A DNA stretch of 41,975 nt. Origin: Candidatus Neomicrothrix sp. UBA7388 (lineage in GTDB: Bacteria > Actinomycetota > Acidimicrobiia > Acidimicrobiales > Poriferisodalaceae). The notes beneath the pieces are model-generated. The model made no database searches. It saw only the letters and a program-made list of their open reading frames with translations, and was not told where the DNA came from. This document shows, one piece after another, positions 8,087 to 33,911 of this stretch. Location of the stretch: NCBI GenBank assembly GCA_002470695.1, contig DKNM01000106.1:1-41975 (forward strand), given 5' to 3'. Numbering within the stretch: the first letter of the stretch is position 1; each line of letters starts with the position of its first letter. Position numbers and translations under genes: made by a program.

Positions 8087-9136
8087 ATGCCTACTTACGT
8101 AACCGAGTTACCTCTTCGATCTGATCTCGACGAAGCTCACGCTCAACTGACGCACCGTTGGGCTGCGACTGGCACCTGGTGGTCAGGTGCAGAGCGTCTA
8201 GCAATAGTGGCAGAGGTTCGCACAGCCTTAGATTCGCCGCGGCTGGCGCCATGGGACGCGCCAAGTCAAATAGAAGGAATGATCTCAACGGGCCATATTT
8301 TGCCGGATCCAGCGATAGACGCGATCTGGCGCCTCACAAATCATCCAGGGACAATCACAGCTGAATGGCACGCAGCAATCATTGGAGGCGGATTGCATCC
8401 CGAGGCCTATGTTGAGCTCGTTGCGGTAGTCGCCCAAGCTAACGCCGTCGACAGATTCGCAGATGCCCTAGATTTGAGTCGAATTAGCTTACCGGACCCT
8501 TCCCCAACAGAACCGCCAAAGCATGGGGCGGTTCCCACCGCCATAACCTCTCATTGGGTCCCAACGGCAGAAATTAAGGGACCCAACGTACTCAAAGCCT
8601 TGAGCGCTGTGCCCTTTGAGAACGAGTCTTTGAGTCTGCTTTCTTCAGCTCAGTATGTTCGTTTAGGGGATCTTCTTTCAGACCTTTCTTCCGATCAAAA
8701 TTCTCTCAGTCGCATGCAGGTCGAGGTCATCGCAGCGAGAACATCAAAACTTAACGAGTGTTTTTACTGAACGACTAGCCACGCTTTTCTGCTCGGTCTG
8801 AGCGGAAGAAATCAAGATTCTGAGGTCAGTTTCGAAGCAGTCGACAACTCGGACTCTGGCGACGGAGGAGTAAGGCATGGAGCGCTACTCTCACGGCTAT
8901 CTGAAGCAATTTTTAACCGAGATAAAGATGAGCTTGCCGCAGTCAAGGATGAAGTAATACGAATTGCCGGTGCAGATGTTCTGGTTGATGCTGTAGCCGT
9001 GTCAGCAAATTTTCACATGATGACCAGGATCGCGGACGGAACTGGGACTCCCTTAGACGCCGGAACGATAGAACCCTCCGCCGAGATTCGCGACCTAATA
9101 GGCGTAAATGGCTTCACCTCTCGACGGGAAGCTTAA
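8087..9136 (+). CDS. AhpD/CMD-like selenoprotein A (in-frame UGA at 8768-8770 = Sec228)
   Basis: A naive reading stops at TGA 8768, giving 227 residues ending LNECFY. The same frame continues open to TAA 9134-9136, for 349 residues. Read through, the junction is ECFY-U-TTSH, matching the CxxCxxxH redox motif of AhpD with Sec for the second Cys (C225, U228, H232), preceded by LSRMQVEVIAARTSKLNE as in that family. The C-terminal SANFHMMTRIADGTGT recurs in paralogue B. Residues 1-130 look like a second, degenerate AhpD-type half (GTWWSGAERLAIVAEV) without a redox pair. Likely a thiol/selenol peroxidase or reductase in the cytosol. A SECIS-like hairpin follows the UGA. The 3' end overlaps the convergent MFS gene by 23 bp. 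Confidence 0.9.
8785..8809 (+). promoter_or_regulatory. Bacterial SECIS-like hairpin of selenoprotein A
   Basis: TTTTCTGCTC (8785-8794) pairs with GAGCGGAAGA (8800-8809) in a ten-pair stem with two G-U wobbles, closing the five-base loop GGTCT (8795-8799). The loop begins 25 bases after the UGA, inside the usual bacterial range, and GGUCU is the core of the E. coli fdhF SECIS loop that SelB binds. The element lies within the coding sequence, as bacterial SECIS elements do. Confidence 0.8.
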
Positions 9137-10523
9137 GCTTATTGTCAAACGTTGTTCCCATGGTCAACGTCAACCCAATCATTGCAAGCAGGCCAGATAA
9201 GCCGACGACCTCGGCAAAGGTAGGAACAAAGACTTCTGGGGCTGTTAGCTCTTCTATACCCAATGCATCTGATCTTCGTTTTCGAAGACCCACAAAGGCT
9301 GTATTCCAGATAGCAAGTCCCGCCACAAGTCCAGCTGTTCTAGTCATCTGAGTCATGCCTCCAGCAACACCCTGTTGAGATCGAGGAATACTCCCCATAA
9401 CAAAGCTCATGTTCGGGACTTGGAAGCTACCCAAACCGATTCCAACAATAGCTAGCGCAACAACAAGGAAGAGCGTTGAGGTCTCGGCGCCAGCCCGACT
9501 GAAAAGTAGAAGTCCTAAGCCCTGCGAGAAAAGCCCAAAGCGGCTTAATCCCAACAATCCAAACTTGGTTACATATTTTCCGGCAAGCCACGCTGCAAGC
9601 GCAGTGAAGGTAGGAGTTATTCCTAGGAGTAGGCCGCCTTCGATTGAATCTTGGCCCCTGACATCGACCAGTAGATAGGGGCCTAAAAACCAAATACTAA
9701 ACATCGAGGCATTGGCTAGGGCATTCAAAACGTTCGCTCGCGCGAATCCCGCTATTCGAAATAATGCGATATCTATTAGTGGCTGGTCGGCTTTTCTCTC
9801 AATGATGACAAATACAAATAAAACGATGGCTGCAGTCGCTATTAGAGCGATAGTGACTGGAGCGAACCACCCCCAGTCCAGCCCCCGACTAGCAACAAAA
9901 AGGGTCAAACCAAGTCCCAAAGCGAGAGTCAGCGCTCCCGCGAGATCTAAAGGCTGCTCATTCTGCTCTTTTGGCCGACGAGCAAGACCACAAGATAAAG
10001 CGGCAAATAGCAAAAGCACTGAGTAAGGAACTCTGAAGAGATATACCGAAGGCCAGCCCCATTTCAGAAGGAGGAGCCCTCCTATCGGAGCTCCCATTGC
10101 AAGTCCCGTTGCACTGAACATCGCATAAAGGCCAAGTGCTCTTGGTTGCTTTTCATGGGATACCGAGAGCGTTACCAACGCAGGGCTCGTTCCCAATATC
10201 AAAGCCATTGCGACACCCTGAAGAACACGCGAAATTAGAAAGAGCCCGAAACTAGGCGAAGCAGCACACGCTACAAACGCGAAAATTTGAGTAACCGTAC
10301 CTATCAGCATGACGCGGCCATGACCGTAGCGATCGCCGAGTCTTCCAGCCGGAAGCAGCAGCACCGAATAGGTCAGCACGAAGCTAACTACCACCCACTG
10401 GATTTGAGCCACATCAATATCGAAAGATGCCGTTATGTCTGGAAAGGCGATGTTTACCGACGTGTCTAGACCACCAAGCAGCCCACCCATACAAGCAACA
10501 ACGACAACGGCCCGCCTATTCAC
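9114..10523 (-). CDS. MFS drug-efflux transporter, 14-TM DHA2 (EmrB/QacA) type
   Basis: A 469-residue protein with about fourteen hydrophobic segments. The N-terminal GGLDTSVNIAFPDI (motif D-type region of DHA2 pumps), WVVVSFVLTYSVLLLPAGRLGDRYG (motif A: GRLGDRYG) and the LGTSPALVTL...GLYAMFSATGLAMGAPIGG segment (motif C-like) fit proton-driven efflux of hydrophobic compounds. It acts in the inner membrane; the substrate is unknown. It lies four bases after the SRPBCC gene and is likely in one transcript with it. The last seven codons overlap the 3' end of selenoprotein A on the opposite strand. Confidence 0.87.
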   Translation of the reverse strand: MNRRAVVVVACMGGLLGGLDTSVNIAFPDITASFDIDVAQIQWVVVSFVLTYSVLLLPAGRLGDRYGHGRVMLIGTVTQIFAFVACAASPSFGLFLISRVLQGVAMALILGTSPALVTLSVSHEKQPRALGLYAMFSATGLAMGAPIGGLLLLKWGWPSVYLFRVPYSVLLLFAALSCGLARRPKEQNEQPLDLAGALTLALGLGLTLFVASRGLDWGWFAPVTIALIATAAIVLFVFVIIERKADQPLIDIALFRIAGFARANVLNALANASMFSIWFLGPYLLVDVRGQDSIEGGLLLGITPTFTALAAWLAGKYVTKFGLLGLSRFGLFSQGLGLLLFSRAGAETSTLFLVVALAIVGIGLGSFQVPNMSFVMGSIPRSQQGVAGGMTQMTRTAGLVAGLAIWNTAFVGLRKRRSDALGIEELTAPEVFVPTFAEVVGLSGLLAMIGLTLTMGTTFDNKLKLPVER

Positions 10524-10527
10524 CGAA

Positions 10528-11004
10528 TTATTTTTCCGCTGCCGCCTTCATAGCTTGGAGTGTTGCGGAGATACTTTCCTTGGCATTGGCCGCCCGGAAT
10601 TGCACTTCGTCATCTCCGTGCTCAATCATCAAGGGCGACAAATTCATCAAAGCCCATGATTCGGTCAAAAGGGTTCCAGAATTAGTTTCCTCTAGGTCAT
10701 AACGCCAGTGGGCGAGATTCATCGCTGTGCCACCTGTTACGAACGCAAAGGTGGTGTTTTCTTGACGTTCGATTATCTCGACGAGCGCCTTCCACTCATC
10801 CTCGCCAATGCGATTGATGCCCACAAACTCATCACCGACTTGACCGGTACCAGGAATGCCATCCTCATTTTTTCTCCAGTAGCCGCCCGTATTTTCCGAA
10901 CTCCACTCGCCATAACGTTCCATCGCGGTAACCATGGCCCAAACATGGGCAGGGGTGGCATTGATTTCAATTGACTCGGAATGGGTCATGATTGGTTCAC
11001 TCAT
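10528..11004 (-). CDS. SRPBCC (START/Bet v1-fold) family protein
   Basis: A 158-residue protein with the polyketide-cyclase/SRPBCC pattern: SIEINATPAHVWAMVTAMERYGEWS near the N-terminus, a beta-rich centre (FVTGGTAMNLAHWRYDLEE, TLLTESWALM), and a long C-terminal helix (ANAKESISATLQAMKAAAEK). Members bind hydrophobic ligands in a deep pocket; here the ligand is unknown. The ATG at 11004 or the Met at residue 6 (10989) could be the start. It sits directly upstream of the efflux pump and downstream of the epoxide-hydrolase-like gene, all on the minus strand. Confidence 0.8.
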   Translation of the reverse strand: MSEPIMTHSESIEINATPAHVWAMVTAMERYGEWSSENTGGYWRKNEDGIPGTGQVGDEFVGINRIGEDEWKALVEIIERQENTTFAFVTGGTAMNLAHWRYDLEETNSGTLLTESWALMNLSPLMIEHGDDEVQFRAANAKESISATLQAMKAAAEK

Positions 11005-11057
11005 AAGCCGAAGTCTTACAGCATCTGCGTAAAGGCGCTATCCAACCCGCATGAGTT

Positions 11058-12008
11058 TTAAACGAAGTCCTTCAAAAATTCTAAAATCAGACGATTCGTT
11101 TCGGCTGTTGCTTCAAGCTGCACCCAGTGCCCCGGTCCCTCAATAACATTCACTGACCGTAAATCATCGAAGTGTTCTTCTCCAACCCGCCCGCCTGTCA
11201 TCTTTCGAACAGGATCTTTAGATCCTGTAATAAAGATGGCCGGCTGAGCAATCTTTTTACCCTTTAACTCAATCGTGTCGCTGAGAAAGCGCGGAATATT
11301 TCTATACCAATTCAGTCCGCCGCGAAATCCTGACTCGTTGTAAGCACTTACGTAGTAATCGAGATCTTCTTCAGTCATCCAATGCGGCAATGCATCAGGA
11401 GGTTTCGGGGCCGCATCGAGCATTCGCTTTTTACCTTGTTGATCAACGGGATCACCTGCATCTCCTGAAGCCGCAACGTGGATAGTGAACAGCGACTTAC
11501 GGACGTCCTCTTCTAGATGAGCTTCCGCTTCACCTACGTTTTCACAAAAGTAAGCCCAGTAGAAAAAGTGATCACCCCAAAATTGTTGGGTGCACCAAGC
11601 AGGATCGAGATTTCGACCATAGGGAACAGACATTCCCACTACGGCACGCACTCGGTCTGGGTACAGAAGTGCGACATTCCATCCGACCAGAGCACCCCAA
11701 TCGTGGATCATAAGAGCGTATTCGTCGTAACCAAGTGCAGTGGCAAGACCGTCGATGTCGGCAGCCAAGTCCCGCACGCCGTAATTTTCGATATCCGGCG
11801 GAGACTCACTAAACCCGTAGCCGCGTTGATCGGGCACGCACACCCTCCACCCTTGGGCGATTAACGGGTCAATTTGATGGCGCCACAGGTACCAGCATTG
11901 AGGCCAACCGTGCATGAGTATGATGAGCGGTCCATCGCCTTCAATAACGCAGCGCAACCTCACTCCGTTTGTCTCTAGTACCTCGAAGTTCCTGTCTGCC
12001 AAAGTCAT
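11058..12008 (-). CDS. Alpha/beta hydrolase, epoxide hydrolase-like
   Basis: A 316-residue alpha/beta hydrolase. The oxyanion-hole motif HGWP (33-36), the nucleophile elbow HDWGALVG (D103, Asp as in epoxide hydrolases and haloalkane dehalogenases rather than Ser) and the C-terminal His in EGPGHWVQLE are present. Epoxide hydrolysis is the best guess; a fluoroacetate- or haloalkane-type dehalogenase is possible. I use ATG 12008 because AGAGG precedes it by about seven bases and family similarity begins there; an upstream in-frame ATG at 12044 would add twelve residues and overlap the promoter of the divergent crotonase. Confidence 0.85.
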   Translation of the reverse strand: MTLADRNFEVLETNGVRLRCVIEGDGPLIILMHGWPQCWYLWRHQIDPLIAQGWRVCVPDQRGYGFSESPPDIENYGVRDLAADIDGLATALGYDEYALMIHDWGALVGWNVALLYPDRVRAVVGMSVPYGRNLDPAWCTQQFWGDHFFYWAYFCENVGEAEAHLEEDVRKSLFTIHVAASGDAGDPVDQQGKKRMLDAAPKPPDALPHWMTEEDLDYYVSAYNESGFRGGLNWYRNIPRFLSDTIELKGKKIAQPAIFITGSKDPVRKMTGGRVGEEHFDDLRSVNVIEGPGHWVQLEATAETNRLILEFLKDFV

Positions 12009-12059
12009 CGCAACCTCTTCTCTCGTCGCGAATAAGCTTCGCACAGCTACTGTGCCCCT

Positions 12060-12872
12060 ATGACTTATGAATCAATCTTGTGCGAAGTGGATCAAGGCGT
12101 TGCGCTAATCACGTTGAACCGACCGGAGCGCCTGAATGCGTGGAACACTCAAATGGCAGCAGAACTGGGCACAGCGCTAGCGACTGCGCAAACGGATAGT
12201 CAAGTACGAGCGGTGGTAATCACGGGGGCCGGTCGGGCGTTCTGCGCCGGCCAAGACCTCTCGGAGGGCGAAGATACCTTCGTCGATCGCCCAAATGCGA
12301 ATCCGCATGAACAAGGAACGCCCCAAACGATGCCGTGGGATTTAACCAAACCGGTTGTTGCGGCGATCAACGGACACGCTGTCGGCGTAGGACTGACATT
12401 CCCCCTGACTTGCGACATCCGGTTCGTCGCAGAGGACTCGAAATTGCAATTCGCGTTCGTTCGGAGAGGTATCGCGCCTGAACTAGGTTCGACAAAGCTC
12501 CTAAGTCGGATGGTGGGACTCCAAGTAGCAAGTGACCTATTAATGTCGGGCCGCTTCTTTTCCGGCGTCGAAGCAGCAGAAATTGGTCTTGCAGCGCGTG
12601 CTGTTCCATCATCAGATGTTCTTGATGTAGCACTGGACTGGGCGCGGGACGTGGCTATGAACACTGCGCCAGTATCAGTTGCCGTAACCAAAAGAATGAT
12701 GTGGGAAAATTTGCGACCCGAAATCGATGACACCTTTCAACAAGAGTTGCGCTTGATTCCATGGCTTGGAAGCCAGCCAGATGCCGCCGAAGGAGTCATG
12801 CACTTTATTGAGAAGCGAAGCCCTAGTTGGTCAGGCGATGTCAATACAGACATGCCCGAGATGAAATTTTAG
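12060..12872 (+). CDS. Enoyl-CoA hydratase/isomerase (crotonase) family protein
   Basis: A 270-residue crotonase. The oxyanion/CoA-binding GAGRAFCAGQDL (56-67) and NGHAVGVGLTFPLTCDIRFV (104-123) are clear. Of the two catalytic acids of true hydratases, only the second seems present (E141 in RRGIAPELGST), while the first position is Gly (VGVGLT). A single Glu is more typical of enoyl-CoA isomerases and related reactions than of hydratases. It probably acts in breakdown of an acyl-CoA intermediate. Divergent from the hydrolase gene with only about 50 bp between starts. Confidence 0.87.
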   Translation: MTYESILCEVDQGVALITLNRPERLNAWNTQMAAELGTALATAQTDSQVRAVVITGAGRAFCAGQDLSEGEDTFVDRPNANPHEQGTPQTMPWDLTKPVVAAINGHAVGVGLTFPLTCDIRFVAEDSKLQFAFVRRGIAPELGSTKLLSRMVGLQVASDLLMSGRFFSGVEAAEIGLAARAVPSSDVLDVALDWARDVAMNTAPVSVAVTKRMMWENLRPEIDDTFQQELRLIPWLGSQPDAAEGVMHFIEKRSPSWSGDVNTDMPEMKF

Positions 12873-12896
12873 AAAGGGCTCGCTCTCTATCGAATT

Positions 12897-13007
12897 TCAG
12901 AGCAATGCGAGCGTGGTTATTAGAACGATAGCGACGCCTGCGAGCGCGCCTCCAAGCCCAAGGAACACAGCGATCATTGCCGGTACCAGCGAATTTTCGT
13001 CTTCCAC
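12897..13007 (-). CDS. 36-residue single-pass membrane peptide
   Basis: Too short for usual callers. GTG 13007 is preceded by a near-perfect GAGGAG (13012-13017) at five bases. The peptide has an acidic start (EDENSLVP) followed by one uninterrupted hydrophobic stretch (MIAVFLGLGGALAGVAIVLI, then TTLALL), ending at TGA 12897-12899. The Gly-rich helix and the outside-acidic start suggest a one-pass membrane peptide. No known family is recognised. It is convergent with the crotonase (24 bp) and divergent from the acyl-CoA dehydrogenase. Confidence 0.6.
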   Translation of the reverse strand: MEDENSLVPAMIAVFLGLGGALAGVAIVLITTLALL

Positions 13008-13138
13008 GTCAGCTCCTCAGATCTGCGTAACTCGCAACACCATAGCCGATCGAGATTCTCATTCCATTCGCAGAGCATGGTGTCCCGTTCTTGTGGAAAT
13101 ATTTCTGTTAACGCTCTCTTCTGAAGGGGAATCAAAAA

Positions 13139-14395
13139 GTGGATTTCGATTACAACGAAAAGACGCTCGAGCACAAAGAACGACTTGAGACATTTATGGA
13201 GGCACACGTTTATCCCGCAGAGGCTGAACACCACGCTTTCATTGAAAATTCCGAGAACATGTGGAAGCAACCACCAATAGTTGAGGACCTAAAAGCAAAA
13301 GCGCAAGAAGCGGGCATCTGGAATTGGTTTCTTCCAGCAGAGTACGCAGAGTGGAGTCCGGGATTCACCAATCTAGAGTTTGCCCCACTAGCTGAGGTTA
13401 TGGGCCGGGTCCCGTGGTCCTTCGAAGTCTTCAATTGCTCGGCGCCTGATAGAGGAAACATGGAGGTGCTAGCAAAATACGGAACGGCGGAGCAACAAGA
13501 CCAGTGGCTGCGTCCGCTGATGGAAGGTCGTATTCGCTCTACCTATGGCATGACGGAGCCACAAGTTGCCTCTTCAGACGCAACAAACATGGAGCTTCAA
13601 ATTGATCGCGACGGCGATCATTACATTCTTAATGGGCGCAAGTGGTGGAGCAGCAACATTTTTCATCCACTCTGTGAGTTCGTAATTACAATGGGCGTCT
13701 CGAATCCAGATAACCCGCGTCACCAGCGTCACTCGATGGTAATTGTTCCGAAAGACACCCCGGGCTTAGAGATAGTTCGACCGCTATCAGTATTTGGAAA
13801 TTTTCACTCACCAGCAGGTCACGGTGAACTCGCATATCACGACGTTCGCGTACCCGTCGACAACATTATTTTGGGCGAGGGACGCGGTTTCGAAATTGCT
13901 CAAGGGCGTCTCGGACCAGGACGTTTCCAGTACGCAATGACCAACGTCGGGATGGCACAAAGAATGCTTGATCTAATGTGCGTACGAGCTGAACAGCGAG
14001 AAGCGTTTGGCACCAAGCTGAGGGATTTCTCCTCCGTGCGGCAAGATATAGCGCGAGCGCGGTGCGCAATCGAGCAAGCGCGGCTCCTTGTTTTAAAGGC
14101 GGCTGCCGAGATGGACAAATCAGGCGCCAAGGGAGCACGGGATTATATTTCGATGGTGAAAATCGTAGGGCCGAAACTTGCCCACGACGTGGCGGAGCGC
14201 GCTATGCAGATATTCGGCGGCAAAGGAATTAGCGGCGACACTCCGATCGCCGAAATGTACGTCATTGGTCGTCTGATGCGAATCGCCGACGGCCCAGATG
14301 AAGTCCATATGAATCAGCTAGCCAAACTCACGATGGCGCAAGCCGAATTGACTCGCCAAAACGGAGAGGGCGGCGTCACTTGGTATGGCGACTGA
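13139..14395 (+). CDS. Acyl-CoA dehydrogenase (ACAD10/11-like)
   Basis: A 418-residue flavoprotein. The middle domain has STYGMTEPQVASSDATNM and NGRKWWSSN, and the C-terminal domain has LMCVRAEQREAFG (FAD contact) and IFGGKGISGDTPIAEMY, then LMRIADGPDEVHMNQLAKL; ADGPDEVH is typical of the ACAD10/11-type branch and holds the probable catalytic acid. It oxidises an acyl-CoA to the enoyl-CoA, passing electrons to ETF. The start is GTG 13139, with AAGGGGA (13124-13130) at about eight bases. The following LLM gene starts 15 bases after its stop, so they are probably cotranscribed. Confidence 0.9.
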   Translation: MDFDYNEKTLEHKERLETFMEAHVYPAEAEHHAFIENSENMWKQPPIVEDLKAKAQEAGIWNWFLPAEYAEWSPGFTNLEFAPLAEVMGRVPWSFEVFNCSAPDRGNMEVLAKYGTAEQQDQWLRPLMEGRIRSTYGMTEPQVASSDATNMELQIDRDGDHYILNGRKWWSSNIFHPLCEFVITMGVSNPDNPRHQRHSMVIVPKDTPGLEIVRPLSVFGNFHSPAGHGELAYHDVRVPVDNIILGEGRGFEIAQGRLGPGRFQYAMTNVGMAQRMLDLMCVRAEQREAFGTKLRDFSSVRQDIARARCAIEQARLLVLKAAAEMDKSGAKGARDYISMVKIVGPKLAHDVAERAMQIFGGKGISGDTPIAEMYVIGRLMRIADGPDEVHMNQLAKLTMAQAELTRQNGEGGVTWYGD

Positions 14396-14410
14396 TCGAT
14401 AGGAACAGCA

Positions 14411-15430
14411 ATGACTAACTTCGTAATCGACGGCGCTACCACGGCTTCTTCGCCTGACGGGTGTGCCTCTGAGGCCATGGCGTTTGAGCAAATGGGCTTG
14501 GACGCTGCCTGGACTTTTGAGGCCTCTCACGACCCTTTTCTTCCGCTGGCGCTCGCTGCTCACCAAACAGACAGCATTCAACTTGGCACCGCAATAGCAG
14601 TCGCGTTTGCTAGAAACCCCATGACCTGCGCAGTCACGGCGTGGGATTTGCAGCGCCTATCAAACGGCCGCTTTATCTTGGGATTGGGAACTCAGATAAA
14701 GCCACATATCACGAAGCGGTACAGCGAGAACTGGTCGCAGCCCGCCGCGAGAATGAAGGAATATATTGCTGCGCTGCACGCTATTTGGGACAACTTTCAG
14801 ACAGGCGAGAAGCTGGACTTCCGGGGCGAGTTTTATACCCACACACTGATGACTCCATTCTTTAGCCCAGGTCCACTTGAGGTAGATCGGCCCCAGATTT
14901 ATGTGGCTGGCGTTGGGCCAAAGATGGTTGAGATAATCGGCGAATCAGCTGATGGATTCTTTGTTCATCCGTTCCACACACCTGACCATATGGAAGCAGA
15001 AACGCTTCCCGTGTTGCGAACCGCCGCAGAGTCAGCGGGTCGAGAAGCGAAAGATGTCACGGTGGCGTGTCTCACGATTGTTGCTATGGGTCGGGACGAT
15101 GCAGAAGTGGAAGATGCGCGCAGCAAAGCGGCAGCTCAACTGGCGTTTTATGGTTCAACTCCTGCTTATGCGGGTGTTCTCGATTTTCACGGTTACGAGA
15201 ACCTCCAACCCGAACTGAATCAGCTCTCAAAGCAAGGCGACTGGAAGAAAATGACAACCAGGATCGATGATGATCTCGTTGATCTTCTCTGCGTGTCGGG
15301 CACTCCAGCGGAGGTTGGCGCGAAACTGAAAGACCGCAACCAGTTCGCGGACCGGTCAACAATGATGTTTTATGGCGCGCCGCCAGACCCCGACGCCATC
15401 GCTGACACAGTCAAAGCTGCCCGCAGCTAA
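14411..15430 (+). CDS. LLM-class oxidoreductase, F420-dependent (MSMEG_2256-like)
   Basis: A 339-residue luciferase-like (beta/alpha)8 barrel protein. AFEQMGLDAAWTFEASHDPFLPLALAAHQTDSI, GTAIAVAFARNPM, LSNGRFILGLGTQ and GPKMVEIIGESADGFFVHPFHTP follow the F420-dependent subgroup usually called the MSMEG_2256 family. The cofactor is therefore probably F420 rather than FMN, but this is family knowledge only. The position after an acyl-CoA dehydrogenase suggests a role in the same catabolic unit. Substrate unknown. AGGAAC precedes ATG 14411. Confidence 0.83.
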   Translation: MTNFVIDGATTASSPDGCASEAMAFEQMGLDAAWTFEASHDPFLPLALAAHQTDSIQLGTAIAVAFARNPMTCAVTAWDLQRLSNGRFILGLGTQIKPHITKRYSENWSQPAARMKEYIAALHAIWDNFQTGEKLDFRGEFYTHTLMTPFFSPGPLEVDRPQIYVAGVGPKMVEIIGESADGFFVHPFHTPDHMEAETLPVLRTAAESAGREAKDVTVACLTIVAMGRDDAEVEDARSKAAAQLAFYGSTPAYAGVLDFHGYENLQPELNQLSKQGDWKKMTTRIDDDLVDLLCVSGTPAEVGAKLKDRNQFADRSTMMFYGAPPDPDAIADTVKAARS

Positions 15431-15540
15431 CACACCCAGCCTTAAATTCACCGGCAAAAATTCTCGGCTAGGTCGCTGCCTCGTTTCGAGGAACTACTCG
15501 GACAGCCAAAAGAGAGACAGTGAGAAGCTAACCAGGTTCA

Positions 15541-15651
15541 GTGGCTGCTACCTCCAAAGACCTCATCGAGTTCGATGTCTGGAAACACGCCGCCGACATC
15601 ATTGAAACGGCAAAAGAACCACTCCTCATACGCCTCCAGTCGAAGAAATAA
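15541..15651 (+). CDS. Possible 36-residue ORF in the gap between two LLM genes
   Basis: GTG 15541 opens MAATSKDLIEFDVWKHAADIIETAKEPLLIRLQSKK, ending TAA 15649-15651, with only AGG four to five bases upstream. The composition is helical and charged like a real peptide, but no family is recognised and the ribosome site is weak. The rest of the 271-bp gap 15431-15701 holds nothing I can identify apart from the terminator-like hairpin at its right edge. It may be a remnant of a longer gene. Confidence 0.25.
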   Translation: MAATSKDLIEFDVWKHAADIIETAKEPLLIRLQSKK

Positions 15652-15674
15652 TCGGACAGGTAAACAATCCAACC

Positions 15675-15706
15675 GCTGATCAGCGATTGAGTTTTCGCTG
15701 TTCAGC
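15675..15706 (-). terminator. Hairpin at the end of the minus-strand LLM gene
   Basis: GCTGATCAGCG (15675-15685) and CGCTGTTCAGC (15696-15706) form an 11-bp stem with one mismatch and a ten-base loop. The stop codon of the LLM gene (TGA, 15702-15704) lies inside the stem. On the minus strand the stem is followed by GGTTGGATTGTTT, only weakly U-rich, so a terminator is likely but not certain. Confidence 0.5.
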
Positions 15707-16721: not shown

Positions 16722-16735
16722 GGCCACACTAATTA

Positions 16736-17374
16736 CTATGCGATTCGGCGTGCCATCGTCTGCAAATTGCTTGATGCCTCAAATAGCGACTCCGACTCAG
16801 TCTGGAGCGAATTAAGGGCTTCAATAGCAAATACCTCGGGCGGCTGGCGCTCTTCATATTGGGCAATCGATTCGTAGTACATGAGAAGGGCGAAAGTGGC
16901 ACCGCCTTCTCCGAGACTGGTCATCAAACCCGCTGTGGGTGTACCTGCCAGTCCGTTTGCCATATCGCAGAAGCGTTGAGACCAATCCATTGCTTGCGGA
17001 ATATTGCTATACGCCGCCTTAGCTACGTTGCTAAAGAGAAAGTCCATCGGTTCAGCTGGCATATTTGCGGAGCCCGCAATTGGGGTCATTATGTTGTCCT
17101 GCGCAGGCGACGCCATCATGCCGGCAGTTGAGCCGACCATCTCAAGATACGCCTGGTCCGCCAATATCTCCGTCTGAACCTCAACAAAAGACGACCAATT
17201 ATCAACTCTAGTACTGACAGCCACGGTGCCTAAAGGCATTCCCATCATGCCCTGCCATCCGTACCAAGTTAGGTCGGTGTTTGAGTTCAAATGCCCCACA
17301 ATCTCAGCTGTTTTACCTAGGCCGTCGAAAACACACTCTGGTTTTAACTGGATCATTCGCTGAAAAATTTTCAT
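16736..17374 (-). CDS. Conserved-looking hypothetical protein, dimeric-barrel-like
   Basis: A 212-residue protein from ATG 17374, which GGTGG precedes by a few bases; the in-frame ATG at 17392 has no ribosome site. No signal peptide or membrane segment is evident. Repeated features include WYGWQGMMGMPLGTVAVSTRVDNWSSFVEVQTEILADQAYLEMV in the first half and MYYESIAQYEERQ in the second, arranged like two ferredoxin-like halves of the NIPSNAP/dimeric alpha-beta barrel type. This is a fold guess from pattern only; no function is proposed. It is upstream of the LLM gene and may be cotranscribed. Confidence 0.7.
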   Translation of the reverse strand: MKIFQRMIQLKPECVFDGLGKTAEIVGHLNSNTDLTWYGWQGMMGMPLGTVAVSTRVDNWSSFVEVQTEILADQAYLEMVGSTAGMMASPAQDNIMTPIAGSANMPAEPMDFLFSNVAKAAYSNIPQAMDWSQRFCDMANGLAGTPTAGLMTSLGEGGATFALLMYYESIAQYEERQPPEVFAIEALNSLQTESESLFEASSNLQTMARRIA

Positions 17375-17467
17375 TGCCACCACATCTTTCATTTATCGGA
17401 TGTCGAGCAATCTAGTGCAACGTTTTATGGAAAAACTAAACAGCAGGAGTCAACAAGAGACAAATCT

Positions 17468-25116: not shown

Positions 25117-25134
25117 AACTCCCCCAATGAAAGA

Positions 25135-25147: not shown

Positions 25148-25222
25148 CCCTACCGATGAGAGCGCGTAAGAATCTCATTGGTTGTTGGCTTAGTGGCCTT
25201 CCACTTCTCTAGGGTATGTAGT

Positions 25223-26362: not shown

Positions 26363-26508
26363 CCGTCAGGGTTTGACAAGATTTTGTTACGAACCCAATT
26401 CCCCAATTCGAAGTTATTCGTCTGCCCATTTTGGGGCTAATTCATTAAGGCCGTATAGATCGTTACAGATCCGACTACGCTCTCCTCTAGATAGCTACTC
26501 GTATAGCA

Positions 26509-27732
26509 ATGAGCGGCCTGGGGGAATGGCTAATGGGGACTCCGGATAGACCTGAAGTTGATAACTGGGAAACAGACTTTGATCATCTGCACAATGACTA
26601 TGCGGCAGATCCCTATCCAATCTGGAAGGAAATGCGCGAGGGTGGATGCCCGGTAGCTCATACGGACCGTTTTCATGGGGTCTATTTGCCTACTCGACAT
26701 GAGGACATCTCCGCCATCGCACATGACACCCAACACTTCTCCTCGAAATCGGTGTTAGTTAACGACATGCCGGCAGCAGAAATAGGTAACTTCAGCAGTC
26801 CGCCCATAACTTCAGACCCACCGGATCATCAAGATCATCGAAGGGCTCTCTTGCCAGCTTTTTCGCCTAAAGCAATCGAGAAGTGGATACCGATTACAAG
26901 AGATATTTGCAATGAATTGATTGATCAATTCATCGACAACGGGTCCTGCGATGCAAGCGCCGACTACGCCCAGCACATACCGGTAAAAGTAATCGCTCGG
27001 ATGATCGGTATACCTGAAGAGGATGGAGATCTCTTCCGCGAGTGGGTTCACGACTTACTCGAAGTTGGGCCTACTGACCTTCACGTTGCTCAGCGGGCAA
27101 CAAAGGATGTTTTCTCCTATTTCAACGATTATTTGAAGGCGCGCCGGGCAGACCCTCGTGACGATATTGTCACGTATTTTCTCGAGTCCGAGGTCGATGG
27201 CGAAAAGATGGATGATGGCCAAATTCTCGGCGGACTCTTCCTCCTTTTGCTCGCCGGAATAGATACGACTTGGAGTTCGATCGGTTCCTCCCTTTGGCAC
27301 TTAGGACAGCATCCCGAGGACCGGCTCCGTCTTTCTCAAGATGATTCGGCATTTGACGCCGCTGTTGAAGAGTTTCTGCGGTTTTATTCGCCTGTCACCA
27401 TGGCCCGAGTCGTCACAGAGGAAGTCGAGGTGTCGGGAACAACCCTATGCCCTGGCCAGCGAGTCTTGTTGCCCTTTGCCTCAGCAAACAGAGACACAGA
27501 GTTCATGGCGGATGCCGAGACTTTCAAAATCGATCGAGAAGTGAACCGTCATTCTGCTTTCGGGTTAGGAATTCATAGGTGCCTTGGATCGAACCTGGCG
27601 CGAATGGAAATCAAAGTCGCGCTTGAGGAGTGGTTTCGCAGAATCCCCAGTTTTGAGTTGCATGACCCCAATTCAGTTTGGTGGTCGAGAGGTCAAGTAC
27701 GTGGCCCTCGGCGTATCCCACTGCGTTGGTGA
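26509..27732 (+). CDS. Cytochrome P450
   Basis: A 407-residue soluble P450 with no signal anchor. The oxygen-binding I-helix motif AGIDTT (249-254), the ExxR pair in EEFLR (E288, R291) and the heme-ligand loop FGLGIHRCLGSNLARME (C358) are intact, and the typical SDPPDHQDHRRALLPAFSP helix is near 102-120. It needs a ferredoxin and reductase partner; none is in the window. It lies next to an LLM enzyme and an HsaA-like oxygenase, suggesting oxidation of a hydrophobic compound. No good ribosome site precedes the ATG; family and substrate not determined. Confidence 0.93.
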   Translation: MSGLGEWLMGTPDRPEVDNWETDFDHLHNDYAADPYPIWKEMREGGCPVAHTDRFHGVYLPTRHEDISAIAHDTQHFSSKSVLVNDMPAAEIGNFSSPPITSDPPDHQDHRRALLPAFSPKAIEKWIPITRDICNELIDQFIDNGSCDASADYAQHIPVKVIARMIGIPEEDGDLFREWVHDLLEVGPTDLHVAQRATKDVFSYFNDYLKARRADPRDDIVTYFLESEVDGEKMDDGQILGGLFLLLLAGIDTTWSSIGSSLWHLGQHPEDRLRLSQDDSAFDAAVEEFLRFYSPVTMARVVTEEVEVSGTTLCPGQRVLLPFASANRDTEFMADAETFKIDREVNRHSAFGLGIHRCLGSNLARMEIKVALEEWFRRIPSFELHDPNSVWWSRGQVRGPRRIPLRW

Positions 27733-27768
27733 TCTCTTTTATTACTCCGTTGACGAAAGACTAGTTCC

Positions 27769-28647
27769 ATGAACATTGGTTTATTTACCCCGTTACGTTC
27801 ACCGGTTGCAAGCCCCGAGTTTCTCAAGGAGTTCGGGCAAAAGGCCGAAGCGATAGGTATTCACTCATTTTGGTTGGGTGAGCATGTTGTTCTGTTCGAT
27901 GATTACGAATCTCGTTATCCGGGTTCCAGTGATGGAGTTTTTAGATTTCCGCAAGGTTCAGGCCTAATGGACATGGTAAGCAGCATTGGTTTTTTAGCTG
28001 CGTGCACTTCCAAACTGCGTCTAGGCACCGGAATTTGTATTCTGCCCCAAAACAACCCGGTGTACGCTGCTAAGGAGTACGCGACCCTCGACTTTCTCTC
28101 GAATGGGCGTCTTGATTTCGGCGTTGGAGTTGGTTGGAGTTGGGAAGAGTTCGAGGCCTGCGGCGCACCATGGTCAAACCGAGGTAAGCGCTGCGACGAA
28201 TACCTCGAAGTCATTAACACCCTGTGGAATGACGAGCTGAGTTCTTTTTCCGGGGAAATGTACGATCTGCCAGAGTGCCGTATGCATCCGAAACCGGTTC
28301 AAGAAGGAGGTATCCCAATCTGTGTCGGTGGTCACTCCGACGCAGCATTACGTCGGACAGCGCGTTTTGGACATGGTTGGTACGGAATTAATCTTTCGCC
28401 GGACGAAAGTCGGGAAATGATCCTTCGCTTAGCGACTTTTCTAGAAGCAGAGGGCCGTTCAATTGAAGAACTCGACATTCATGTCGGAGCGGTGAATGAC
28501 CAAATGGACGCTTCGATGGTTGAGGCATACGCAGAAGCCGGCGTGACGCAATTGCTAATACCGTTTTTGAGGCAAGGCACTAAGCACCTTGACGCGAATC
28601 TAGAGGCAATTCAGCCCTTTATTGAGGTCGCCGACAGTATTACTTGA
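27769..28647 (+). CDS. LLM-class F420-dependent oxidoreductase (TIGR03619-like)
   Basis: A 292-residue luciferase-like barrel protein. KAEAIGIHSFWLGEHVVLFDDYESRYP, RLGTGICILPQNNPVYAAKEYATLDFLSNGRLDFGVGVGWSWEEFEACG and IPICVGGHSDAALRRTARFGHGWYG match the actinobacterial F420-dependent subgroup often labelled TIGR03619. It closely resembles the LLM protein at 31224 in these segments. It starts 36 bases after the P450 stop, so it is probably in the same transcript. The last eight bases overlap the convergent RmuC gene. Confidence 0.85.
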   Translation: MNIGLFTPLRSPVASPEFLKEFGQKAEAIGIHSFWLGEHVVLFDDYESRYPGSSDGVFRFPQGSGLMDMVSSIGFLAACTSKLRLGTGICILPQNNPVYAAKEYATLDFLSNGRLDFGVGVGWSWEEFEACGAPWSNRGKRCDEYLEVINTLWNDELSSFSGEMYDLPECRMHPKPVQEGGIPICVGGHSDAALRRTARFGHGWYGINLSPDESREMILRLATFLEAEGRSIEELDIHVGAVNDQMDASMVEAYAEAGVTQLLIPFLRQGTKHLDANLEAIQPFIEVADSIT

Positions 28648-29869
28648 ACTCGGATTCAGAGGACACGTCCATATCCTCTGCAACCTCTAATTCTCTGGCA
28701 GTCAAGGCTCTAGTGGAGGTTTCGATGGGCTTCACTTCAGGGAGTTCAGCGCCAGAGACACCTAGCTCGGAGAACCTTCTCAGGGTAGGTAGGACTCTGC
28801 TTTCAACGCTGCCTATCATTTCGTTGTACGCCCTAGCGGCAGATTCCAAACCCCTTCCGGTCTTGGCCATAGCTGAAAGCGTTGTACCAACACGTTGGTG
28901 CAGCTCCCGACCCTGTTCTTCAACTCTTTCCGCATTTTCTGCAAGTTGAGTAGTTTGCCAGCCTCGGGCAATTGTAAGTAAGAGCGCCATAAGGCTCATC
29001 GGGGATGCAATCACTACTCGCTGACGCATTGCCTCATCAACCAATCCTGGCTCCGATCTCAAGGCATCAGCTAAGAACGATTCTCCGGGGACGAACATCA
29101 CTACAAAATCGGGGGCGTCGTCAAAAAGCGCCCAGTAGCGCTTGTCAGATAATGACTTCACGTGTGACTGAAGAGCCTTTACATGGCTCCGCAATTCAGC
29201 TTCGCGCGCCGTTGTTTCTTCTAACTCCTGCATTCTCAGATATGCAGACAAAGGTACTTTCGAGTCAACGACAAGAAATGCCCCGTTGGGGAGCCGCACC
29301 GTTAAATCGGGGCGGAGCACCCCATCATCGCTCATGGCGGAGGCTTGTTCCGAAAAGTCACAAAAGGAGGCCATCCCGGACAAGTCAATAATATTCCGCA
29401 GTTGGTTCTCACCCCATGCCCCTCGAGCAGCAGGCGACTTCAAAGCCCCAGCAAGGGCACCGGTTCGACTATTTAATTCATTTATTTGATCGATCAGACT
29501 TTCTTTTAGCGCGTCAAACGAGCCCTTATTTTTTTCATACGTGGATCTCAAATCGCCGACGGAGGTTTTTAACTGATCCATTTGTTCAGCTACGGGCCGA
29601 AGGAGGCTCTTGGTTTGCTCCTCCAGCGTGCGGCTGCGTTGATCAATCAGTTGACCTGCTAATTCGTTGTTCGTTTGAAGAGCAGCTTGAGCGGCCCTAG
29701 CAACTTGCGCGTCTACAGCTTCCTTCACCGCAGTAACTAATCCATCGGTATCAATTCGGTCGGGGACATCCCGCGCTTCAGGGACTTGACTTCGAAGACG
29801 CAATTGACTCACAAGGTAACCAACGACAGCAGCAAGAATCGAGATCACAACGATGAAGATGATGGTCAT
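28640..29869 (-). CDS. rmuC: RmuC family DNA recombination protein
   Basis: A 409-residue protein. An N-terminal membrane anchor (IIFIVVISILAAVVGYLV, about 3-20) is followed by a long coiled-coil region (about 45-135) and the RmuC core (GAWGENQLRNIIDLSGM, FLVVDSKVPLSAYL, DFVVMFVPGESFLADAL, VIASPMSLMALLLTIARGWQTTQLAENA). RmuC proteins limit inverted-repeat-driven rearrangement and carry a restriction-endonuclease-like fold. It is a housekeeping gene in an otherwise catabolic region. Clear assignment. Confidence 0.92.
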   Translation of the reverse strand: MTIIFIVVISILAAVVGYLVSQLRLRSQVPEARDVPDRIDTDGLVTAVKEAVDAQVARAAQAALQTNNELAGQLIDQRSRTLEEQTKSLLRPVAEQMDQLKTSVGDLRSTYEKNKGSFDALKESLIDQINELNSRTGALAGALKSPAARGAWGENQLRNIIDLSGMASFCDFSEQASAMSDDGVLRPDLTVRLPNGAFLVVDSKVPLSAYLRMQELEETTAREAELRSHVKALQSHVKSLSDKRYWALFDDAPDFVVMFVPGESFLADALRSEPGLVDEAMRQRVVIASPMSLMALLLTIARGWQTTQLAENAERVEEQGRELHQRVGTTLSAMAKTGRGLESAARAYNEMIGSVESRVLPTLRRFSELGVSGAELPEVKPIETSTRALTARELEVAEDMDVSSESEFK

Positions 29870-29912
29870 TACTACATGGTGGCATCAGGCTGGGACATCA
29901 GGTGTCGATCTC

Positions 29913-31133
29913 CTAATCAATTATGCCGGCCCGCCGCAACTCGTCTAGCTGCTCTCTCGTAACTCCTACCTGCTCAAGAATTTCGTCAGTGTGTTGGTTC
30001 GGGAGGGGGGCACCGTGTCTTACGCCGACCGGCGTACGGCTGAACTTGGCAGCAGGTCCTGTGAGAAGGGCAGTAGATCCGTCAACTAGCTTCGTCTCTT
30101 GAAGTAAATCGCGTTCAAGGACATGCGGGTCAACTGCAGCGTCAGCGAAGCTATTCACGGCAGAAATGACTATCCCAGCGGCATCAATCGCCGAGACCAC
30201 TTCGTCCTGACTGCGTTCGCGGCACCATTCTGCCACCAACGCATCAACTGCTGATCGATGCTCAACTCGATTCTCATTGGTCGAATAACGGGGATCGTGT
30301 CCGAGTTCCGGTCTACCCAAAACTTCGGTCAGTCGAACCCAATGAGAGTCGAGAATTAGCGCCAAGAAAACGTATCCGTCGTCACACTCGTAGCAATTAG
30401 TTGGGGCGCACACCATGACCTCGCTACCCCATCGCTGAAGTGACTCGCCCGCTGCCCCGAGAGCTAGGTAGCCGTTGGACTGATAAATGATGGAGTCTAG
30501 AAGCGATACATCGACGTGTTGTCCCTCGCCTGTCGCGTCTCGGTGATGCAAAGCCGCGAGAACACCTAAGGCACCATGCAGGCCAGATAAGTCGTCAGCT
30601 AGGAATGTCGGAGCTTTAGTCGGAGGGCCGTTCTTATCTCCGTTCAGCGCCATCCATCCGCTATGTGCCAGAGCTCCTGGATCATATCCAGGCCGATCGG
30701 AATGAGGGCCAAACTGACCCCACCCGCTAACGGACAGATATACAATGTCGGGCTTAACTATTTGGCAGTCGCCGTAGCCGACACCCCAACTATCCAAGGT
30801 GCCCGGTTTGAAATTTTCGACCACAACATCAGCGGAACCAACCATCTGCAAGAAAGCTTCTGCACCTTCCGGTGTGCGAAGATCAATCGCAACGCTTCGC
30901 TTATTCCTGTTCACTGTCTCTTCTGCAAACGATCGGGAGAAGCCTATATGAGGCTTCCATTGCAGTCCTTGGTCGCCAGGCATAGCAACCCGAATTACGT
31001 CGGCGCCATAGTCGGCCAAAAGACACGAAGCCATCGGACCGGCCCAAGCAGTAGTTGCGTCGATAACGCGAACGCCTGCAAGGGGCCCCGAAAGATCACT
31101 TCGGGCATTCCTGTAAAATTCCCCCTTGTCCAT
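29913..31133 (-). CDS. CaiB/BaiF family (family III) CoA-transferase
   Basis: A 406-residue CoA-transferase from ATG 31133, matching the usual family length; an in-frame GTG at 31241 would add 36 residues and overlap the divergent LLM gene, so I did not use it. GVRVIDATTAWAGPMASCLLADYGADVIRV, NRNKRSVAIDLRTPEG, ADVVVENFKPGTLDSWGVGY and YLSVSGWGQFGPHSDRPGYDPGALAHSG are family blocks; the catalytic Asp is probably D181 (ADDLSGLHGALGVLAAL). It probably activates an acid for degradation. It is distinct from the CaiB at 19561. Confidence 0.88.
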   Translation of the reverse strand: MDKGEFYRNARSDLSGPLAGVRVIDATTAWAGPMASCLLADYGADVIRVAMPGDQGLQWKPHIGFSRSFAEETVNRNKRSVAIDLRTPEGAEAFLQMVGSADVVVENFKPGTLDSWGVGYGDCQIVKPDIVYLSVSGWGQFGPHSDRPGYDPGALAHSGWMALNGDKNGPPTKAPTFLADDLSGLHGALGVLAALHHRDATGEGQHVDVSLLDSIIYQSNGYLALGAAGESLQRWGSEVMVCAPTNCYECDDGYVFLALILDSHWVRLTEVLGRPELGHDPRYSTNENRVEHRSAVDALVAEWCRERSQDEVVSAIDAAGIVISAVNSFADAAVDPHVLERDLLQETKLVDGSTALLTGPAAKFSRTPVGVRHGAPLPNQHTDEILEQVGVTREQLDELRRAGIID

Positions 31134-31223
31134 AACCCAAGGGTAGATACAAGAAGTGGACTCGTGCAGCGCGAACTGCGCAATATCTTCTAGGGTCACG
31201 TCGCAGCAGACGAAAGGGCCGAA

Positions 31224-32150
31224 ATGGAATTCGGTGTTCACTTACCCGACGCAGGGCGAGATCCAAGTCGAGACGCAATGATTAGGATCGCAACCGCGGC
31301 TGAAGAACTTGGCTATAGCTCAGTCTGGTCTAGCGACCACATAGCATGGCCCGACCCAGCAACGCTGCAATCCAAGTATCCGTATGCCGACGACAACAGT
31401 GGCTTCCCTGAAGCTGGTAGCGCGTGGTTGGATTGCATCGGAACGCTCCAGTTCGTAGCAGGCATAACTGAAAGAGTGCTACTGGGAACAACCGTTTTGA
31501 TTTTGGGTTATCGAGGCGCTGTGCAGCAGGCAAAAGGTTGGGCGACCTTGGATCATCTTTCTAACGGTCGAGCCATCATGGGTGTCGGTGTTGGATGGAT
31601 GCAGGAAGAGTTTGAAGCAATAGGCCGACCGTGGGACAACCGCGGCGCTCGAGCCGACGAAACACTAGAAGTATTTCGCGCCTTATTCAGCGAGGGATTA
31701 GCCAGCTACGAAGGTAGGTGGACGCAATTTCAGAACATAGGTTTCAGCCCGAAGCCCGTTGATAATCACATTCCGGTATGGGTCGGGGGTCACTCTCAGG
31801 CAGCTTTTAAGCGTACTGCCCGGTTCGGAGACGCTTTCCATTCAGCGTTTGCTCCTCCCGCGCTCCTCGCCGAGCAATGGAAAACAGTGGAAAGTGAGTG
31901 CGAAACCATCGGCCGCGATTCATCTGAGCTGTCTCTAACGAGTCTTTTCAGATTGAACTTCGACGGCGGCGATTTGGAACAGGGTGAAGTCGGCGGGAGT
32001 AACGAGGAAGTAATTGATCAGGTCGGCCAATACTCTGACGCTGGTCTGGAACACGCAGCCTTTTTTGTATTGGGTCGCGGGACCGAAGGTCGACTCGAGG
32101 CAATTCAACGCTTTTCTGAGGAGATTGCCCCACACTTTCCCGCCACTTAA
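31224..32150 (+). CDS. LLM-class F420-dependent oxidoreductase (TIGR03619-like)
   Basis: A 308-residue luciferase-like barrel protein. TAAEELGYSSVWSSDHIAWPDPATLQSKYPY, LLGTTVLILGYRGAVQQAKGWATLDHLSNGRAIMGVGVGWMQEEFEAIG and IPVWVGGHSQAAFKRTARFGDAFH are the signatures of the same subgroup as the gene at 27769. AAAGGG lies about six bases before ATG 31224. It is divergent from the CaiB gene and convergent with selenoprotein C, 20 bp away. F420 use is inferred from the family; substrate unknown. Confidence 0.85.
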   Translation: MEFGVHLPDAGRDPSRDAMIRIATAAEELGYSSVWSSDHIAWPDPATLQSKYPYADDNSGFPEAGSAWLDCIGTLQFVAGITERVLLGTTVLILGYRGAVQQAKGWATLDHLSNGRAIMGVGVGWMQEEFEAIGRPWDNRGARADETLEVFRALFSEGLASYEGRWTQFQNIGFSPKPVDNHIPVWVGGHSQAAFKRTARFGDAFHSAFAPPALLAEQWKTVESECETIGRDSSELSLTSLFRLNFDGGDLEQGEVGGSNEEVIDQVGQYSDAGLEHAAFFVLGRGTEGRLEAIQRFSEEIAPHFPAT

Positions 32151-32170
32151 AAGTCACTCGCCGGCCCTAT

Positions 32171-32728
32171 TTAGGAATCAAAGATCCACGGTTCTGTAGA
32201 AACCCCGAGTCCGTCAGCAATACGATTCGCGTAGGCGTAGTAGGCAGTTACTTCAGCTATATCAAGAATATCGCGGTCGCTGAATCCAACTGATCGAAGG
32301 TTGTCGATATCCAAAGCACTCATAGCTGCCGGCTCATGAGTTAACTTAACCGCATATTCAAGCATGGCCATCCTTTCGGGACTCAGCGGGGCTGACCGCC
32401 AGTCGGCTTCAACGGCTTCAGCTAGTGAATCATTCTTAAGTAGGTGGCGCAGACCGCGCCGGTGATGCTCAATTCAATAGTGGCAGTCATTTTCGACACT
32501 TACCACCAAAGCAACGAGCTCACGTTCTACCTTGCGAAGGCTGCGTGTACCGGCCATCGCCGAACGATAAACGGCGTCATGTGCCGCCAAACCCCTGGGG
32601 TTAAGCGAATGAATCGACATTATGTGGTCGATCCGCCCATAACTCTTATCGACAACCATTTCATGAAGGGGCGCAAGATTTACGTCGCCCTCCCAGTCGT
32701 CATCAGGAACTATTTGAATCCATGCCAT
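32171..32728 (-). CDS. AhpD-family selenoprotein C (in-frame UGA at 32476-32474 = Sec85)
   Basis: A naive reading stops after 84 residues (...VSVENDCHY). The frame stays open past the TGA to a stop at 32171-32173, giving 185 residues. With Sec read in, the site is DCHY-U-IEHH (C82, U85, H89), which is the N-x-CHYCxxHH-type motif of the AhpD/peroxidase-related CMD family with Sec in place of the second Cys. The N-terminus (MAWIQIVP, IMSIHSLNPRGLAAHDAVYRS, LRKVERELVALVVSVEND) and C-terminus (AEVTAYYAYANRIADGLGV) are both good family matches, which favours one protein. Its start is 64 bp from the divergent start of selenoprotein B. Confidence 0.92.
32446..32460 (-). promoter_or_regulatory. Bacterial SECIS-like hairpin of selenoprotein C
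   Basis: On the minus strand GGCGC (32460-32456) pairs perfectly with GCGCC (32450-32446), closing the loop GGTCT (32455-32451). The loop begins 19 bases past the UGA, inside the bacterial SECIS range, and has the same five bases as the loop in gene A and the E. coli fdhF core. Confidence 0.78.
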
Positions 32729-32792
32729 AGCAATATCGTGTCGCGCTGTAGGAAGCTACGGTGTTATAGCTGGAAAATCATTGAGGAAAACT

Positions 32793-33911
32793 ATGACCAC
32801 GACCCCAGGTGCCCTAATCAAATCGTCGCACAATAGTTCCAGCGTTTCTGTCCGAGCCGATCTTACTTCCGCCCATATCGAAGTGTGGGAGGCACTTGCT
32901 AGTCCTGGAACATGGTGGACTGGTCATGAAAGGCTAGCTATAGCTCAAATTATTCGAATCGCTATCGAGGAAGAACAGCCCGTTCCGCCGTGGGAAAGTG
33001 CCTCTTCGCTCGGACGGCTCACCGAGACAGGGCCTCTGTCAGCGGAACTCCAAGATGCTATCTATCGCTTGGCGGCGCACGCGGGAACGCTGACCGAGGA
33101 TTGGTATTCAAGGCTTCGAGACGCAACAGCTATTACGCCAGAACAATGGGTAGAAGTTATCGAAATCGCTGCGAGCGTTGTCTCCGTCCTTCGATTCGCT
33201 GAGGTACTCGGGCTCGAGAAGCCAGATTTTCCTCCCGCCATTGGAGGTGAGCCATCGAGAAAAACGCAACCTTCTAAGCCTGCCAAGCATCATTGGGTAC
33301 CCGTTGTACATCTTGAAGAGATGACAGAAGAGTTAGCCCCCTACTACCAGGGATTAACGATTCTGCCACCAGTAGTACGCGCCCTGAGTTCCGTCCCATC
33401 TGCAATGGCGGCCTTATTTCTACTCTCGAGCGCACAATACATTCCAATGCAAGAAATGGCCGACTTAAACTGGTCCCGGGGAACTCTGTCTCGCCGCCAA
33501 ATCGAATTTGTCGCCGGACGTCTTTCGGCGCATCGAGAGTGTTTTTATTGAACTGCGGCGCATTCAATGATGCTCCGTGCGAGTAGCTCCGTAAACGATA
33601 TGGAAGTCGATCTCAATGCAATCCAAGGTGAGGCTATAGATAGCTCTGCCGTAGTCGCTGCATCTGCTCTCGCGAACTTGGTCGATGCTTCCGTGAATAA
33701 CCTCGAAAATCTCGACGCTGCGCGAGCGGAGCTGGTGGACGCTACTGATGAAGCTACTTTGGTTGATGCAGCAGCGGTAATTGCAAATTTCGAAATGATG
33801 ACAAGAATCGCTGACGGGACTGGTACAAGACACACATCAGATCGAATGGAATCAATGGCCGACATAACTACTGCGATGGGTCTTCACGACTTCATCTCAG
33901 CCCGGAGGTAA
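32793..33911 (+). CDS. AhpD/CMD-like selenoprotein B (in-frame UGA at 33549-33551 = Sec253)
   Basis: The frame from ATG 32793 stops at TGA 33549 after ...LSAHRECFY, but stays open in the same frame to TAA at 33909-33911: 372 residues in all. The join reads ECFY-U-TAAH, with C250, U253 and H257 in CxxCxxxH spacing. The C-terminal AAVIANFEMMTRIADGTGT recurs in paralogue A. The N-terminal half (GTWWTGHERLAIAQII) looks like a degenerate second AhpD-type unit without a redox pair, again as in A. GAGG (32783-32786) is six bases before ATG 32793; a TTG at 32781 lies in frame but is less suitable. Divergent from selenoprotein C. Confidence 0.9.
33571..33585 (+). promoter_or_regulatory. Bacterial SECIS-like hairpin of selenoprotein B
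   Basis: TGCTC (33571-33575) pairs with GAGTA (33581-33585) in a five-pair stem with one G-U, closing loop CGTGC (33576-33580). The loop starts 25 bases after the UGA, the same distance as in paralogue A, and the GU at loop positions 2-3 is kept. The stem is shorter and weaker than the other two. Confidence 0.55.

Follow-up and report, generated by a model that had tools for sequence, protein, structure and literature searches.

Conserved in-frame UGA codons, very likely read as selenocysteine, in three AhpD-like genes of a Candidatus Neomicrothrix contig

Introduction

When a reading frame reaches UGA directly after Cys-x-x and then stays open in the same frame, is the UGA a stop or a codon for selenocysteine (Sec)? 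The question arises three times in a 41,975-nucleotide stretch of DNA from Candidatus Neomicrothrix sp. UBA7388 (class Acidimicrobiia; contig DKNM01000106.1 of assembly GCA_002470695.1). This stretch, called the window below, is an entire contig (C107) of a 2.31-Mb, 144-contig genome that is 91% complete. An earlier note on the window had proposed that three of its genes, here named A, B and C, encode AhpD-like proteins in which Sec takes the place of the second Cys of the CxxCxxxH motif. We conclude, with a probability of about 90%, that the three UGAs are read as Sec under the direction of a predicted downstream hairpin resembling a selenocysteine insertion sequence (SECIS), which yields predicted proteins of AhpD fold whose Glu-x11-Cys-x-Tyr-Sec-x3-His site would reduce peroxides. 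The Sec reading is strongly supported by the Sec genes of the genome, the conserved UGA and frame, the Cys-containing homologues and the hairpins.

Reading frames and family membership

Gene A starts at ATG 8087, and its codons 1-227 end in NECFY before the UGA; another 121 codons lead to a TAA/TAG stop at 9134-9136. Gene B (ATG 32793) reads RECFY before the UGA and continues for 119 codons beyond it (stop 33909-33911), and gene C, on the minus strand, starts at ATG 32728, reads NDCHY before the UGA and remains open for 100 codons (stop 32173-32171); these two stops are likewise TAA or TAG. These coordinates and translations agree with the earlier description of the three frames. The His described four residues past the UGA is also present in all of them, and the continuations do reach family C-termini, with a RIADGTG region in A and B and a RIADGLG region in C. 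The positions of all features are collected in Table 1.

Table 1. Positions in the window of the three genes, their UGA codons, the predicted hairpins and the divergent neighbour of A
Feature	Positions	Strand	Details
Gene A, NF041238-family selenoprotein	8087..9136	+	349 residues read through; E213, C225, Y227, U228, H232; 337.1 bits
In-frame UGA of A	8768..8770	+	Sec codon 228; from translation
Predicted SECIS-like hairpin of A	8785..8809	+	10-bp stem, pentaloop GGUCU
Gene B, NF041238-family selenoprotein	32793..33911	+	372 residues; E238, C250, Y252, U253, H257; 336.5 bits
In-frame UGA of B	33549..33551	+	Sec codon 253; from translation
Family hairpin core in B	33571..33585	+	TGCTC-CGTGC-GAGTA; the lowest-energy fold of B's own 39-51 nt is a different one
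Gene C, TIGR01926-family selenoprotein	32171..32728	-	185 residues; E70, C82, Y84, U85, H89; 137.9 bits
In-frame UGA of C	32474..32476	-	Sec codon 85; from translation
Predicted SECIS-like hairpin of C	32446..32460	-	GGCGC-GGTCT-GCGCC
DyP-type peroxidase gene, divergent neighbour of A	7039..7968	-	Pfam PF20628; 118 bp from A

It had also been argued that three independent continuations cannot reasonably be due to chance. TGA is the terminal codon of 15 of the 40 listed window genes, A, B and C included, and in 11 of the 12 others the frame past the TGA is open for 1-57 codons. The exception is an acyl-CoA dehydrogenase gene (13139-14395), where at least 300 codons, the limit of the script, are open and the frame enters the next gene. 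Chance read-through was rejected on the strength of these short extensions. The independence of the three cases did not stand: A and B are paralogues, C comes from a different family, and there are therefore two families.

All three proteins match family profile models across the UGA. A and B cover nearly the whole NCBIfam model NF041238 (AhpD_rel_CFYUT) and pass its curated equivalog cut-off of 175; both have the CFYU(T) site and the downstream His that this family requires, with no difference of kind. C passes the curated cut-off of TIGR01926 (81.8 bits). With the model of AhpD proper, TIGR00777, A and B gave no match at E <= 1, and C scored 17.1 bits against a cut-off of 191.95. The proton-relay residues E, C, Y/H, C(U) and H stand at a fixed AhpD-like spacing in A, B and C, and this spacing, E-x11-C-x-(H/Y)-C-x3-H, is common to them and the AhpD-fold proteins AhpD of Mycobacterium tuberculosis and PA0269 of P. 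aeruginosa (PMC3141380). They differ from these two in having Sec for the second Cys, and B in having, in its model, two AhpD-like halves.

Both families had been catalogued as selenoprotein families before, so A, B and C are of a known kind. Going by the accessible portions of the papers cited here, NF041238 is listed as a CxxU selenoprotein in a 2026 review (PMC13188914) and is the 'hypothetical protein 1' of the 2005 Sargasso Sea selenoproteome (PMC1088965). An 'AhpD-like' CxxU selenoprotein was published in the same survey and is mapped to TIGR01926 in the review. Additionally, AhpD-like 1 and 2 have been described, together with adjacent selenoprotein genes in other pairings (PMC2398784). 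From the TIGR01926 peroxidase-related/AhpD-like (COG2128) selenoproteins, C differs only by its conserved divergent pairing with B. New here are the conserved grouping of the genes, the RNA hairpin, the near-total use of Sec in the class sample and the predicted two-domain architecture.

Selenocysteine machinery and conservation of the UGA codons

No selA, selB, selC or selD had been seen in the window, and it indeed holds none of them. All four are present in the full genome: selA and selB are adjacent on contig C14, the tRNA-Sec (anticodon UCA) is on C10 and selD is on C16. In a sample of 296 genomes of the window's class, selA was detected (E <= 1e-50) in 44 of the 45 genomes bearing the A/B family, against 201 of the 296 overall. 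The family-bearing genome without selA at this threshold is G234; genome G247, which has a Cys form of the gene, does possess selA.

To follow the UGA in the A/B family, one genome per species (84,980 species) was scanned with a pattern ending at ECFY. This gave 230 relatives, from which the best 80, ranked by closeness to the query, were kept; most carry an Acidimicrobiia title, and among the others are Deltaproteobacteria/Myxococcota, Binatia, Thermoanaerobaculia, Woeseia and unnamed bacteria. In 80 of 80 loci TGA follows directly after ECFY and the frame stays open, in nearly every case reading T-x-x-H next. One further ECFY (L037), followed by CTG, was discarded as a chance match. Similarly, TGA occupies the corresponding position in 14 of 14 syntenic orthologues of C. 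The earlier note had named TGC or TGT in independent reads as a reason to give up the proposal; since other assemblies have TGA at all these loci, sequencing error is ruled out as the origin of the UGAs.

In the class sample, 45 of the 296 genomes contained 50 genes over the NF041238 cut-off, 49 with one TGA and one, in G247, with Cys (CFYC). In a sample of 396 genomes of the phylum, four matched the family (E <= 1e-25), all from the window's class. For the TIGR01926 family, the 150 matches listed in the class sample comprised 99 with one TGA and 51 with none.

A search of the protein database with B, in which the 7,995 candidates sharing most words were scored, listed 45 matches; 43 of them stop precisely at CFY, and not one is a full-length protein. 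The homologues of C were sorted by motif among the 120 of 323 matches listed: Cys stands at the U position in 22, as an alignment with Cys homologues had been expected to show, 86 are fragments starting just past the site, two end before it, and the others have Trp (6), Leu (1), Arg (1) or another residue (2). It is clear from the 43 truncated B homologues and the 86 C fragments that the catalytic residue is missing from many records. Cys forms may be under-seen in the locus scan and the B search, because the loci kept are those nearest the query and the candidates scored are those sharing most words with it.

The Sec:Cys ratio of 49:1 for NF041238 in our class sample differs from the 4:7 of 'hypothetical protein 1' in the Sargasso set, and in the accessible part of that survey Sec forms are generally rarer than Cys forms (PMC1088965). 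The A/B family, being almost purely Sec, thus gives an opportunity to test cleanly under what conditions Sec is difficult to replace.

As a side observation, the C homologues with Trp (P0047, P0049, P0050, P0051, P0060, P0151), Leu (P0048) and Arg (P0061) may reflect either translation with another code or a real change.

Hairpins downstream of the UGA codons

The region 3' of each UGA had been proposed for folding, and hairpins, judged by folding together with pair counts, were found after the UGAs of A, B and C. Each has a G in its apical loop and falls within the range of 16-37 nt past the UGA that is used to recognise a bacterial SECIS. In the A/B family the core starts at the 20th nt past the UGA with TGCTC, followed by a five-base loop whose second base is G and by a partner arm GAGYR or GGGYR. 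In a set of 83 sequences (A, B, a fourth copy and the 80 loci) the five core pairs are formed in 82 or 83, and all 83 have G as the second base of the loop. The synonymous sites of this hairpin are frozen: all 82 rows use CTC for the Leu of the 5' arm (30% among Leu codons elsewhere in the same genes), and all 79 rows with Ser in the 3' arm use AGY for it (elsewhere, 32%), three more rows having Gly there. The pairing fraction was 0.94 in register and 0.22-0.49 when the arms were slid.

Among the 78 distinct rows, 24 cells had two-sided changes, compared with 7.0 in shuffles, and none of 500 shuffles reached this number. The number of pairs with a two-sided change was not above shuffles in these rows (413/500), and that of further pair types was barely above them (41/500). 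RNAalifold alone retained the five core pairs. In the Cys form of G247 the pairing of the hairpin is lost.

The hairpin of C lies 14-28 nt past the UGA, and its loop GGTCT, which it has in common with A, is the same in the window and in 14 of 14 loci. In the stem, G-C pairs are exchanged for G-U, in two loci for A-U, and in some rows one or two outer pairs are broken. Plain folding energy showed nothing special for A or C and gave a different fold as the minimum of B; a free-energy hairpin scan was weak for B, for selD and for a peroxiredoxin-like open reading frame (ORF) described at the end of this paper.

Proposed function and alternative explanations

In the mechanism we propose, SelB would use the hairpin 3' of the UGA for the insertion of Sec. 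Occupying the position that the second Cys has in AhpD, beside the proton-relay His, Sec would attack the hydroperoxide; the first Cys would then resolve it as a selenylsulfide, which an external thiol reductant would clear. Peroxide reduction by Sec is what we infer for A, B and C from their sequences.

The alternative that survives best disputes the function only: Sec would be inserted, and the enzymes would act as thiol-disulfide adaptors, or as reductive dehalogenases like Bmp8, in the neighbouring catabolic pathway. We think this rather unlikely, as A, B and C retain the five-residue proton-relay pattern seen in AhpD-like reducers of peroxides and A adjoins a peroxidase gene in 23 loci; the debrominase Bmp8 itself is set apart from A, B and C by its different reaction. 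Much less probable is that a suppressor tRNA or a different genetic code makes UGA stand for Cys or Trp. The Cys found at the site in homologues, and the Trp, Leu and Arg among the listed homologues of C, would suit such decoding, but the genome has complete Sec machinery including tRNA-Sec(UCA), 12 further listed genes of the window are terminated by UGA, and the hairpin accompanies the UGA form and is absent in the single Cys form seen. That translation really ends at the UGAs, with the truncated proteins as the products and the downstream frames as decayed remains, is hardly credible and was rejected: gene callers do stop at CFY in nearly all listed B homologues, but B differs from four orthologues past the UGA mostly at third codon positions (0.60-0.66; first, 0.24-0.31; second, 0.13-0.15), H257, F333, R338, A340 and G344 (B numbering) are retained in 55 of 55 aligned family members, the read-through chain of B was modelled with confidence, and the UGA is kept in the 80 loci across several phyla.

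Predicted two-domain architecture

With the UGA read as Sec, the model of B shows a fused pseudo-dimer, a single chain with two halves of AhpD fold, of which the C-terminal one alone keeps the site. By its kinship to B, A is probably built likewise; C is the ordinary one-domain form. When the two halves of B were compared by profile, E was 0.00039 with a probability of only 35%, and a duplication is therefore suggested mainly by the models.

Two AhpD-like domains per chain, as in the model of B, are also known from Sestrin. In human Sestrin2 the live site is in the N-terminal domain Sesn-A, whereas that of B is in the C-terminal half (PMC4674687, accessible part), and the DDYDY hinge of the Sestrin C-terminal domain is absent from the sequence of B. 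None of 55 family members matched the Sestrin family PF04636 at E <= 1, the 10 PDB sequences matched at E <= 10 include no Sestrin, and Sestrin identity by sequence was rejected. Fused AhpD dimers of bacteria have been described, in the sources accessible to us, with Cys, unlike the Sec of B.

A second CxxC, in the N-terminal half and aligned with the C-terminal site, occurs in 25 of the 27 loci without an Acidimicrobiia title and in 1 of the 53 with it. It is found in 19 of the 45 rows of alignment A4, and A and B are without it. In the tree, the lineages of A and B, both lacking it, form one group of 53 rows with support 100/98. A single loss in the A/B lineage is allowed by this tree, though not proved; the root was placed at the midpoint, the bootstrap had not settled, and two changes are needed when the long-branched Cys form is included. 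A third family copy of the own genome is seemingly split over contig ends, with an N-terminal TCELCIER on C140 and a C-terminal NECFYUTAAH on C121.

These observations lead us to a tentative proposal, which we hold to be possible but not probable. NF041238 might be a bacterial, Sec-using counterpart of the Sestrin layout, in which the N-terminal CxxC passes electrons within the chain to the C-terminal CxxU. The A/B lineage would have lost this inner donor, leaving one live and one dead half as in Sestrin, and the third copy of the genome appears to keep both. If this is true, NF041238 is a natural series from a two-site redox relay to a one-site pseudo-dimer, and with such two-centre and one-centre forms in series the origin of Sestrin-like pseudo-dimers would become open to test.

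Two copies from Myxococcota (L093 and L103) were placed inside the A-type group of the tree, which suggests transfer between phyla.

Gene neighbourhood

The divergent pair of A and the DyP-type peroxidase gene is kept in 23 of the 36 A-type loci (23 of the 80 loci overall), sometimes as the sole window neighbour found. The starts of C and B are 64 bp apart on opposite strands, and of 16 close B loci 14 keep this pair with its neighbours; of the other two, one is without C and one is cut by the contig end. A- and B-type genes occur on one contig in seven metagenome-assembled genomes. Beyond the conserved A and B groups 40 loci are left; pieces of the gene itself and an ORF antisense to it aside, no neighbour cluster was found in more than seven of them, and those seven sit in one subgroup of Acidimicrobiia.

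The window also contains genes for two acyl-CoA dehydrogenases, three enoyl-CoA hydratases, two CoA-transferases, five luciferase-like monooxygenases, a P450, four MFS transporters and others. Two divergent pairs in a stretch so rich in acyl-CoA, luciferase-like monooxygenase and P450 genes would fit a role in clearing peroxides from oxidative catabolism.

The C-B and DyP-A pairings were not found in print in the literature on selenoproteins, which was accessible in part, with subscription papers mostly outside. A search for papers on selenoproteins and selenocysteine in Acidimicrobiia found none. Judged by title, papers on selenocysteine in marine actinobacteria contained nothing on the present finding, and those joining selenoproteins with DyP-type peroxidases were only work on microbial peroxidases.

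Two ORFs of the window, 16736-17392 (-) and 36254-36841 (+), of 218 and 195 residues, have no Pfam match. The latter recurs near B in 14 loci.

Other probable selenoprotein genes

The selD gene of the own genome (G000:C16, locus L018) itself carries an in-frame TGA, in SHGAGUACKLGP, and is for this reason also a probable selenoprotein gene. A further probable selenoprotein is encoded by an ORF labelled by eye as peroxiredoxin-like (L118, G000:C122:4482-6000, plus strand), with the motif LSPGUTKQ. Near it, at G000:C122:5721-6251, we noticed a TIGR01926 paralogue without the stop, which has Cys at the site (SCMYCVVAH).

Genomes of genus g66, of about 0.6-1.1 Mb each, often retain selA together with a TIGR01926 gene that carries an in-frame TGA; the use of Sec thus seems to survive genome streamlining in very small genomes of the class.

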